DNA of 64,000 bases from an uncultured Phycisphaerae bacterium (GTDB lineage: Bacteria; Planctomycetota; Phycisphaerae; Sedimentisphaerales; Anaerohalosphaeraceae), in contig CALEDR010000021.1 in NCBI GenBank assembly GCA_937949545.1, positions 62,001 to 126,000 on the forward strand, written 5' to 3'. Shown one piece after another: positions 5,532 through 11,727 of the stretch. The notes below the pieces were generated by a model that worked only from the letters and a program-made list of their open reading frames with translations, did no database searches and was not told the DNA's origin. Numbering within the stretch: the first letter of the stretch is position 1; every line of letters begins with the position of its first letter. The translations under genes were made by a program, and so were the position numbers.

Positions 5532-6932
5532 CTAAGAGGTACTCTGTCGTCCGGCGAACAGCTCCCGCAGCCGCTCCACAGCCCGTTCCAGACGGACGGA
5601 GCGGGACGCCTTGATGAGTATTATATCGTCCGGCTGAACATAGAAATGCAGATTATTGCACAGGGCTTCCACCGTTCCAAAGGCAATCCGCACACCGGTA
5701 CCGCCCAAAAGATTATCGGCCCGAGCCGCCCCCTCCGCCAAAGCCTGGGCAAAACGGCCCGCCACCAAAATCACTCCGACCCCCCGTTCGGCAGCAAACT
5801 TTCCCAATTGACGGTGCAGGGAATCGCTCTCGGCGCCCAGTTCGAGCATATCCCCTGCGATAAACACACTCCGTCGTCCCTGCGACTGAGCCATCCGAAC
5901 CAGACAGTCCACCGCATTTTCCATAGAGGCCGGGTTGGCATTGTAGCAGTCATTGAGCACCGTCAGCGGCCCGATATGTTCAATCTGCATCCGCATATCC
6001 GCCGCCGTAACGGTCTTCATCGCCTCCGCAAAGTCCGATAAACGGATGCCCAAATCTCGACAAACCGCCCACACCATCAAACTGTTGCGCAGCGACCCTA
6101 TCCCGGCCAGCGGAACCCGAATGGTCTGCCCTTCCAGCTGCAGCCAGCCGTTGGTCCCGCAGCTGTGCAGCCGCTCCGCCCGAACCATACAATCCGGCCC
6201 TTCGCCTACCGTAATGACCGTGTGTGCATAGTGCTGACGAATGTAACGAACCAACGCTGCCACATCTCCATTGATGTAGGCTTTTCCGTCGGAAGAAAGT
6301 CCCTCCAGAATCGATGCCTTTTCCTGAATAATGGCCTCGATGGACCCCATTCCCTCCAAATGGGCCGGTGCAATATGGGTAATCACGGCGACGTCCGGAC
6401 CAGCCATCCGGCTCAGGGGAGCAATCTCGCCGGGATGATTCATCCCGATTTCCACCAAGAGAATTTCATCCTCCGGCTGGGCCGACAAAAGCGTCAGCGG
6501 CACGCCGATTTGATTGTTAAAACTTTTCTGGGCCTGCCGTGCTCGAAAGTATCGGCTTAGGACGCAGAAAAGCAGATGACGGGTCGTGGTTTTGCCGACG
6601 GAACCGGTAATCGCTATCACCCGGGCTTTCAGCCGTCTTCGATACCAGGCCGCCAGCCGCCCCAACGAACGGACCGTATCCTCCACGCGAATGACCGGAA
6701 TCTTTAAATCAGTCGGCGGTTCTTTGTGCACGACGGCACAAGCCGCCCCTTTCTGCTCTGCTTGACGAAGAAAGTCATGGCCGTCAAAACGCTCGCCCGG
6801 AACAGCCAAAAAACAGTCCCCCGGCTGAATGGTACGGGAATCAATGCTGACCCCTGTTATCATCCGCTCGGGCTGCTCTGTAAACGGCTGTCCCAAGACT
6901 TCGCACAATTCCGATAAACGCAGAGATTCCAT
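5532..6932 (-). CDS. murF: UDP-N-acetylmuramoyl-tripeptide--D-alanyl-D-alanine ligase MurF
   Basis: MurF adds D-Ala-D-Ala to UDP-MurNAc-tripeptide in the cytoplasm, the last soluble step of the peptidoglycan precursor. The 466 residues match the family. The N-terminal substrate domain (about 1-100) carries SIDSRTIQPGD; the ATP-binding loop is GSVGKTTT at 110-117; the central domain shows EIGMNHPGE; the C-terminal domain has NDCYNANPASM and AGDMLELG. First gene of the murF-mraY-GT39 operon. Its ribosome site is weak (GGG ~9 nt upstream of ATG). The transcript leader upstream contains a promoter and a strong hairpin with a T run (7126-7250), so its expression may be attenuated; a separate weak promoter nearer the gene (-10 TATAGG near 6985) is also possible. 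Confidence 0.96.
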   Translation of the reverse strand: MESLRLSELCEVLGQPFTEQPERMITGVSIDSRTIQPGDCFLAVPGERFDGHDFLRQAEQKGAACAVVHKEPPTDLKIPVIRVEDTVRSLGRLAAWYRRRLKARVIAITGSVGKTTTRHLLFCVLSRYFRARQAQKSFNNQIGVPLTLLSAQPEDEILLVEIGMNHPGEIAPLSRMAGPDVAVITHIAPAHLEGMGSIEAIIQEKASILEGLSSDGKAYINGDVAALVRYIRQHYAHTVITVGEGPDCMVRAERLHSCGTNGWLQLEGQTIRVPLAGIGSLRNSLMVWAVCRDLGIRLSDFAEAMKTVTAADMRMQIEHIGPLTVLNDCYNANPASMENAVDCLVRMAQSQGRRSVFIAGDMLELGAESDSLHRQLGKFAAERGVGVILVAGRFAQALAEGAARADNLLGGTGVRIAFGTVEALCNNLHFYVQPDDIILIKASRSVRLERAVERLRELFAGRQSTS

Positions 6933-7125
6933 TCAACTGCCCAGCTTTCCCAAACCCGCTATCATTCCTGACCGGCCCGAATACCCTATAATCTACCAAA
7001 AGATCCGCCAATGTGCTACAGCCTTCTTCTTGGAACCTCACTGCGCACCATATCAGAAAGGGGATGACAAGAACATCAGTATTATTCCCTATAAGTGGAA
7101 GAAAAAAGCTTTTTTGAAACAGTTT

Positions 7126-7169
7126 AAAAAAAAGAAAAGCAGCGGCAAGGAGGCAACCGCTGCTTTTTT
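7126..7169 (-). terminator. Intrinsic terminator of the candidate small RNA / murF leader
   Basis: Perfect 11-bp stem, 7135-7145 pairing with 7157-7167, with an 11-nt loop. On the minus strand it is followed by TTTTCTTTTTTTT (7138 down to 7126). The T run on the plus strand (7163-7169) is shorter, so the minus direction is the stronger one. Confidence 0.75.
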
Positions 7170-7213
7170 CCCAGGTTGAAGAACCTGGCATTAGGAGGAG
7201 GAGGGTAATCTTG
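7126..7213 (-). ncRNA. Candidate small RNA or attenuator with CCUCC motifs, upstream of murF
   Basis: From the predicted start near 7213 the minus-strand RNA has three parts. First is an unpaired 5' tail with repeated CCU triplets (CCCTCCTCCTCC, about 7195-7206). Next is a perfect 7-bp hairpin, CCAGGTT/AACCTGG (7171-7188). Last is an 11-bp hairpin (7135-7145 with 7157-7167) whose loop again holds CCTCC and which runs into TTTTCTTTTTTTT. That is a textbook intrinsic terminator, so an ~85-90 nt RNA is expected. Both CCUCC stretches are complementary to Shine-Dalgarno sequences. It could act in trans as an anti-SD small RNA, or in cis as a leader attenuator of murF, which starts 194 nt beyond the terminator. 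No known RNA family recognised. Confidence 0.55.
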
Positions 7214-7220
7214 TTATCAT

Positions 7221-7250
7221 ATTCTACGGAATATTCCCTATGCAGTTCAA
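7221..7250 (-). promoter_or_regulatory. Sigma70-like promoter of the candidate small RNA / murF leader
   Basis: On the minus strand, -35 TTGAAC (7245-7250) and -10 TAGAAT (7221-7226) are separated by 18 bp. Matches to consensus are 4/6 and 5/6. The predicted start (~7213) places the C-rich RNA immediately downstream. Confidence 0.5.
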
Positions 7251-7513: not shown

Positions 7514-8338
7514 ATGAGTAGCCGGTATTCCAAAACCGGGTTTACGGTCATCGAACTGCTCGTAGTAGTGTTTCTGATTGCACTGCTGCTGGCAATTGTT
7601 ATCCCCTCTCTGTTCAAGGCCCAGGGAAGGGTTCAGACCATCACCTGTCAGTCCAACCTCAAACAGTGGGGTATCTACCTGGTTATCTATTCCAATGACA
7701 ATGACGGATATCTGCCCGCAGACAGCCGCGACTGGATGATTTCGCTTCTGCCCTATTCCGAGGCTGCTCGAAGTGCTTCCGGTTCACCCTCCAGCAATGC
7801 CGGTCCCAACAAAAGTATTACCTGCTGCCCGACGGCCGCCCAGTCGGGCTCTATCCCCCCCAGCGATTTCGGTCAGCCGTTTGCCGCGTTCCCCATTCAG
7901 TATCCTCATTCCTCCGAAACAATCGCCCTCGGCAGCTACGGCATCAACGGCTGGGTTTGCCATGTTTCTCCATCTGAAAAAGAAATTTACGGCATCCCCG
8001 CCTCTAAGAACTGGAGACGCTTTGATGTCGGCGAAAGTGCTTCCAAAATCCCGCTGGTGCTGGACAGCATGTGGATTCGGGCCTTCCCGGACAACAACAA
8101 CCTGCCTCCTGAAAAGAACGGGGATTTCAGCAACTGTGACCTGACCGGCGGGGGAAGCCGCCAGATGCGTCACTTTGCCATTGCCCGCCACAATGGGCGC
8201 ACCAATATCCTGTTTCTGGATTTAGGGGTTCACCAGAGCGGTCTGAAAAAGCTCTGGAAGATGAAATGGCATCGCGGCAGCGATGCCAACGCTCCGGAAC
8301 CCGCCTGGCCCGAATGGATGCAGGGCCTTCCTGATTAA
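7514..8338 (+). CDS. Type II/IV prepilin-like protein with planctomycete-type C-terminal domain
   Basis: A 274-residue pseudopilin-like protein. Its N-terminus is a short positively charged leader followed by GFTVIELL (G9/F10, Glu14 at mature +5), the prepilin peptidase and methylation site, then a hydrophobic helix. The globular part contains SNLKQWGIYLVIYSNDNDGYLP and ends in RHNGRTNILFLDLGV, the pattern seen in large planctomycete/lentisphaeral families of exported prepilin-like proteins (H-x9-DG group), here with DLG in place of the usual DGH. ATG at 7514 is preceded by GGAG with 4-nt spacing. These proteins are usually numerous per genome and of unknown function; a second one lies at 18573-19433. 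No pilus assembly genes are nearby. Confidence 0.8.
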   Translation: MSSRYSKTGFTVIELLVVVFLIALLLAIVIPSLFKAQGRVQTITCQSNLKQWGIYLVIYSNDNDGYLPADSRDWMISLLPYSEAARSASGSPSSNAGPNKSITCCPTAAQSGSIPPSDFGQPFAAFPIQYPHSSETIALGSYGINGWVCHVSPSEKEIYGIPASKNWRRFDVGESASKIPLVLDSMWIRAFPDNNNLPPEKNGDFSNCDLTGGGSRQMRHFAIARHNGRTNILFLDLGVHQSGLKKLWKMKWHRGSDANAPEPAWPEWMQGLPD

Positions 8339-11607: not shown

Positions 11608-11727
11608 ATGTTGGAAACAGAAAGGACACCTCCCAAAGAACCTTTGGGCAAAGCTGAAGACAGGGATTATTCAGAACCGCTGCGGCTTGACCAAACGGCC
11701 GGCAGAACTGTGGAGTACACCGCCTAA
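11608..11727 (+). CDS. Candidate 39-codon leader peptide upstream of mgtE
   Basis: An ATG at 11608 opens a 39-codon frame ending at TAA 11725-11727, inside the predicted mgtE leader. The peptide begins MLETERTPPKEPLGK and carries four prolines (residues 8, 9, 12 and 24). The upstream GAGAGACGAAG gives only a weak ribosome site. It resembles in concept the proline-containing mgtL leader peptide of enteric mgtA, where translation senses Mg2+/proline; no sequence homology is claimed. It could be chance, and only its position between a promoter and an SD-masking hairpin makes it worth listing. Confidence 0.35.
   Translation: MLETERTPPKEPLGKAEDRDYSEPLRLDQTAGRTVEYTA

Follow-up and report, generated by a model that had tools for sequence, protein, structure and literature searches.

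On the minus strand of the window (the whole 64,000-nucleotide stretch of DNA that was analyzed), a short element ahead of murF very probably encodes a regulatory RNA of ~90 nt that has been kept by selection across the bacterial family. We consider it likely that this is a stand-alone gene of ~90 nt for a trans-acting, C-rich anti-Shine-Dalgarno small RNA expressed from a stress-type promoter under the control of an alternative sigma factor, one that probably acts on the protein output of other genes and not on its neighbor murF. The traits that point to this functional kind, all read from sequence, are a conserved unpaired CCUCC and a predicted independent unit, with its own promoter and terminator, that is not linked to any one target gene.

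The initial annotation had described a minus-strand promoter, a CCU-repeat tail, a 7-bp hairpin, an 11-bp hairpin whose loop carries CCTCC, and a long T run, and we confirmed this layout to the base (Table 1). The 5′ end of the small RNA was inferred to lie 6–8 nt past the −10 box, while the 3′ end was placed within the T run. The predicted 90-nt RNA had a folding energy of −28.8 kcal/mol (z = −4.6), with none of 200 shuffled sequences folding as well (0/200), and its fold consisted of two hairpins with the tail left single-stranded. A simple scanner called the promoter as ordinary sigma-70 (9/12 match) and overlooked the terminator, since it allowed loops of at most 8 nt and the actual loop is longer. 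The element is single-copy in its own genome (2.84 Mb assembly), whose placement in Planctomycetota is based on the nearest named record, a MAG of that phylum with 84% MurF identity.

Table 1 Coordinates of the predicted small RNA, its parts and associated promoter and dyad motifs in the window.
Feature	Position	Strand	Basis or remark
Predicted small RNA, ~89 nt	7127..7215	minus	promoter and terminator positions; model match 7130-7213 at 98.7 bits
Promoter hexamers TTGAAC and TAGAAT, spacer 18 nt	7250-7245 and 7226-7221	minus	read from sequence
ECF/alternative-sigma-type promoter core, GAAC (7248-7245), N16, CGTA (7228-7225)	7225..7248	minus	
Operator-like dyad TAGGGAATATTCCGTA in promoter spacer	7225..7240	minus	TMRGKA-N4-TMCYKA pattern
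Unpaired pyrimidine tail CCCTCCTCCTCCT (CCCUCCUCCUCCU tail), anti-Shine-Dalgarno element 1	7205-7193	minus	unpaired in fold
Hairpin 1, perfect 7 bp: CCAGGTT (7188-7182), tetraloop CTTC, AACCTGG (7177-7171)	7171..7188	minus	
Intrinsic terminator hairpin, 11 bp, with T run	7126..7167	minus	all 11 pairs with compensatory changes
Terminator stem arms AAAAGCAGCGG and CCGCTGCTTTT	7167-7157 and 7145-7135	minus	T run ends at 7126
CCTCC within terminator loop TTGCCTCCTTG, anti-Shine-Dalgarno element 2	7149..7153	minus	
Second dyad TAGGGAATAATACTGA past terminator	7076..7091	minus	conserved here in the genus and one other genus

Conservation of the element was assessed in genomes that were mostly metagenome assemblies. 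A plain DNA search recovered it in every genome of the window's genus and across most of the family's remaining genera. With a covariance model (R1), 36 of 39 family genomes, representing 16 of 16 genera, gave a match, mostly one copy each, and weaker matches occurred in the sister families of the order. A second model (R2), run against 397 genomes of the class, found no convincing member beyond the order; its sole match outside (G331) had neither tail nor promoter. In a 42-sequence alignment that was fitted to the covariance model, 15 of 18 base pairs had changed on both sides and 95.8% of cells were paired, with 71 compensatory cells compared to 17.7 in shuffled alignments (0/500 shuffles as high). 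An unfitted 15-sequence MAFFT alignment agreed with this result (9/18 pairs, 23 compensatory cells vs. 5.0 in shuffles). Compensatory changes were distributed over 4/7 pairs of hairpin 1 (92.4% of cells paired) and 11/11 pairs of the terminator hairpin (97.6% of cells paired). Among 38 distinct members, CCUCC was present in the tail of 34 and CCTCC or CTCCT in the terminator loop of 33, and the 29 members with CCUCC in both tail and loop included cases in which the stems were wholly rewritten. Hairpins and CCUCC elements alike were kept in relatives. Together, the stability of the fold relative to shuffled sequences and the family-wide conservation with covariation place the element above chance.

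Since terminators are common and C+U-rich spacers arise by chance, as is generally known, the element could be taken for just a strong shared terminator with a pyrimidine-rich flank and no regulatory RNA. However, none of our results favored this reading; the unpaired segments, hairpin 1 and the promoter are conserved over 16 genera in unrelated contexts, and we regard it as exceedingly improbable. An RNA from the opposite strand, which would carry GGAGG, was not favored, as promoter conservation is confined to the minus strand and a T run on the other side is missing from several members. A short protein within the element was not favored either, given that the ATG before hairpin 1 becomes AAAG in some members and that spacer lengths vary.

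Two further loci were recorded during these searches. One genome carried two copies of the RNA ~500 nt apart (L144, G007:C68:23939-24523), one having a GAAC-N16-CGTA promoter and no CCUCC in the terminator loop, and the other having the loop CCUCC and no such promoter. Tandem TTTCCTCCTCCTCCAAATG repeats with a nearby hairpin in a same-genus genome (L155, G001:C3:6984-7097) may represent another C-rich RNA.

Gene context was compared across homologues. In the window, murF (5532-6932) has its start codon at 6932, 194 nt downstream of the element, and the other flank is occupied by a divergent pilin-like ORF (7514-8338) with an N-terminal methylation motif. As an alternative to a small RNA, the initial annotation had put forward a transcription attenuator of the murF-mraY-GT39 operon. 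In such an attenuator or leader of murF-mraY, conditional bypass of the terminator would let the upstream promoter express murF. This is consistent with the window's genus, in which the element precedes murF on the same strand in 6/6 genomes (with one intervening ORF in 2), but not with the other 17 homologues examined, in which murF was not nearby and some elements faced convergent genes. Outside the genus, neighbors included mgtC, ftsY (assigned from its sequence, not by Pfam), dnaA, rnpA, parB, gapA (GAPDH) and NUDIX genes, several of them convergent. In addition, hairpin 1 and the terminator form separate helices, and neither the minimum-energy nor the consensus fold held a competing antiterminator. 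Neighbors thus change while the RNA and promoter persist, indicating that RNA and promoter travel as a unit, and this changing gene context argues against an operon attenuator. With murF downstream in one genus only and convergent neighbors in several genomes, we dropped the attenuator as very unlikely.

We also assessed the promoter among homologues, independently of the RNA itself in that the model that found the 41 members did not include the promoter. GAAC-N16/17-CGTA was present upstream of 38 of these members, compared to 0.18% of shuffled upstream regions. The promoter TTGAAC-18-TAGAAT of the initial annotation does occupy the bases given for it, but the core that is conserved is the ECF-like GAAC/CGTA, not the sigma-70 hexamers. 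Promoters in the window's genus are also sigma-70-like in this way, whereas most other members retain GAAC and CGTA 16/17 nt apart but have no −10 resembling TATAAT (for example TTCGAAC..CGTAATAG, TTTCGAAC-N17-CGTAATAG), and in two complete sister-family genomes the promoter of the homologue is sigma-70-like instead (TTGATA-17-TAGAAT). A GAAC-type −35 and a CGTA-type −10 at a fixed 16/17-nt spacing form the layout of ECF-sigma promoters such as that of Bacillus SigW (TGAAAC-N16-CGTA). Judged by its motif, the small-RNA promoter is better described as alternative-sigma (ECF-like) than as ordinary sigma-70. Across the genome, GAAC-N16-CGTA had 43 hits vs. 71 for a reversed control, and nearly all of the hits checked were within genes, which indicates that it is not the general promoter of this genome.

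The genome has 27 sigma-domain genes, among which we searched for a cognate sigma. No sigma gene that both bears this promoter and is conserved family-wide was found, and the GAAC/CGTA motif was absent upstream of the sigma genes conserved in small relatives, including the L159-like and L164-like genes that all or nearly all small genomes share. Autoregulation did not identify a cognate sigma either: the motif precedes just one ECF gene (C6), which lacks conservation across the family and is parted from the motif by a distinct RNA-like element. Judged only by which sigmas small family members share, the candidates are the RpoD-like L159 type and the ECF L164 type.

Only one other intergenic GAAC-N16-CGTA clearly preceded an RNA-like element (L165:1059-1340; G000:C6:74353-74640, plus strand). 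This candidate RNA is ~230 nt long and terminator-ended with a fold z of only −1.55, and the genes just downstream encode an ECF sigma and a putative anti-sigma factor. It had no match in Rfam, and long matches to it occurred within the genus and in a few of the family's other genera. Another sequence that may be a promoter of this type, TTGAAC-N18-TACAAT with CGTA (L238, G000:C42:959-987, minus strand), is located ~69 nt ahead of an ORF beginning MIRPALTLRRRRILIDVGTQRDLFTADGKA that is putatively isochorismatase-like.

The operator-like dyad was recurrent as well. The pattern TMRGKA-N4-TMCYKA occurred within −200 to +150 at 16 of 29 sRNA loci and had no occurrence in the remaining 48.6 kb of these loci, although it was derived from the same loci, such that its fit is partly by construction and its absence elsewhere in the loci serves as control. 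Species of the window's genus have one copy in the promoter spacer and, in most cases, another beyond the terminator; in other genera the dyad is located upstream of the −35. It is predicted to bind a regulator, probably a dimeric one. Two near-perfect dyads 289 bp apart were also seen where a GNAT-like gene begins elsewhere in the genome (L325:11335-11350 and 11624-11639). As for regulator-like genes near the sRNA, an Rrf2-like gene is divergent to it at one locus (L009), and another is found near it at a second locus (L014).

The same small RNA could be constitutive and transcribed via the housekeeping sigma, with GAAC/CGTA being a transcription-factor site, as might be argued from the sigma-70-like hexamers of the window's genus with a dyad overlapping CGTA, from the lack of a cognate sigma that could be named, and from the alpha-r14 RNAs, which have a conserved motif within a sigma-70 promoter (PMC7143759). 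Most other members nevertheless keep GAAC/CGTA where there is neither a TATAAT-like −10 nor a dyad at that place, and we judge constitutive transcription to be unlikely and control by an alternative sigma to be the better reading.

Shine-Dalgarno use and complementarity to the small RNA were quantified in 614 genes from the window and 40 genome stretches (862 kb in total), for which gene starts were taken from a simple ORF finder. The Shine-Dalgarno 4-mers AGGA/GGAG/GAGG were present at 40% of genes vs. 13% in the background, with a sharp peak at −11/−12, and GGAGG at 6.5% vs. 1.3%, such that Shine-Dalgarno use in the genome is mixed. These sites occur in a minority of genes, which suggests that an RNA directed against them would be selective. 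Tail-complementary 7-mers were found in the Shine-Dalgarno window of 18 genes vs. 4 upstream, and 6-mers complementary to the loop in 56 vs. 18, and composition-matched shuffles were as good in 10/100 cases for tail 7-mers, 1/100 for loop 6-mers and 17/100 for loop 7-mers. Among 161 genes, complementarity tests showed no enrichment in the Shine-Dalgarno window, and duplex-energy target prediction showed no Shine-Dalgarno preference (36% vs. 35% shuffled). Genes complementary to the tail more often encoded exported proteins (45% vs. 21%, p = 0.015), which is a hint only, as the excess had p = 0.12 once restricted to genes with a Shine-Dalgarno 4-mer.

The initial annotation had claimed a small RNA able to pair with ribosome binding sites. 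Its first part, a self-contained RNA with exposed CCUCC, has strong support from conservation, covariation, the promoter and shifting context, whereas for pairing the computational signal was weak, with complementary sites weakly enriched in the set of 614 genes and not in the set of 161. That target pairing only modestly exceeded composition-matched controls would also be expected if the C-rich segments were mainly a protein-binding or decoy site, either bound by an RNA-binding protein or sponging a purine-rich RNA, and the regular CCU repeat of the tail could be read by a protein. We give this reading a low probability relative to Shine-Dalgarno pairing, given that both conserved unpaired segments carry the exact 16S-like CCUCC(U) core and that sites complementary to this core are more common in the Shine-Dalgarno window than upstream.

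For the anti-Shine-Dalgarno RNA we infer a mode of action that covers its expression, the kinds of sigma factor and regulator involved, mRNA pairing, and repression as the outcome. An alternative (ECF-type) sigma, when active, would probably transcribe the RNA from GAAC-N16-CGTA, with a dimeric DNA-binding regulator probably modulating transcription via the overlapping dyad, and transcription would stop at the Rho-independent terminator of the element itself. The C-rich segments would be protected and presented by hairpin 1 and the terminator, and the single-stranded CCUCCUCCU tail and the CCUCC of the terminator loop would mimic the 3′ end of 16S rRNA. By pairing with the strong Shine-Dalgarno sequences that selected mRNAs carry, the CCUCC elements would then block translation. 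A doubtful but possible extension is a so far undescribed planctomycete stress regulon built around one small RNA that mimics the 16S tail, which would serve as a switch specific to the minority of genes with strong Shine-Dalgarno sequences (perhaps rich in exported proteins) under an ECF sigma and the dyad-binding regulator. With many genes lacking a strong Shine-Dalgarno sequence, the system would offer a direct test of an rRNA-tail mimic as a selective translational regulator.

In the open-access literature that we searched, no comparable regulatory small RNA was described from Planctomycetota, and the window searched against Rfam at the gathering threshold gave no match. Firmicute C-rich sRNAs (RoxS/RsaE and similar) target ribosome-binding sites with single-stranded C-rich stretches, but differ from the planctomycete RNA in sequence, structure and phylum. 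GsrN of Caulobacter, an sRNA under the general-stress ECF sigma factor sigma-T, uses an exposed C-rich segment to pair with G-rich sites of mRNA leaders (PMC5869019). The planctomycete RNA resembles it in having an exposed C-rich segment and, as predicted from the promoter motif, ECF-type control. The C-rich segment of GsrN, however, is a hairpin loop, and GsrN homologues are confined to Alphaproteobacteria, typically near ecfG/nepR; we found no sequence relation between the element and GsrN.

The closest likeness in principle is to the alphaproteobacterial cuckoo, alpha-r14 (NfeR1) and CcsR1-4 RNAs, which are small and trans-encoded, with unpaired anti-Shine-Dalgarno motifs of the CCUCCUCC type and variable stems (PMC10746234, PMC3927594, PMC7143759). 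The planctomycete RNA likewise combines variable stems with conserved, unpaired anti-Shine-Dalgarno motifs, and with CcsR it shares an alternative-sigma promoter (RpoHI/RpoHII in CcsR; PMC10253847), here predicted from the motif. Unlike CcsR (CIN1 locus), which is processed from the mRNA of ccaF1 (DUF1127), the planctomycete RNA has its own predicted promoter, and among the neighbors recorded at its loci no DUF1127 gene was noted. Cuckoo and alpha-r14 RNAs are defined by three or more hairpins with CCUCCUCCC in each loop (PMC10746234, PMC7143759), in contrast to the two hairpins found here, with one motif in the 5′ tail, one in the terminator loop, and a host in another phylum. The best same-strand Rfam hit, RF02344 (ar14), scored 20.3 bits against a cut-off of 58.8 (E = 0.13). 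As this score is far below the cut-off and the three-hairpin architecture is absent, the element is not an alpha-r14 member, and we conclude that it probably works like these RNAs in principle and forms a new family within a known kind of sRNA. If true, this would be an sRNA present throughout a planctomycete family, for which promoter, pairing elements and covariance model are defined; it would share its underlying idea with the alphaproteobacterial cuckoo RNAs while being independent of them.
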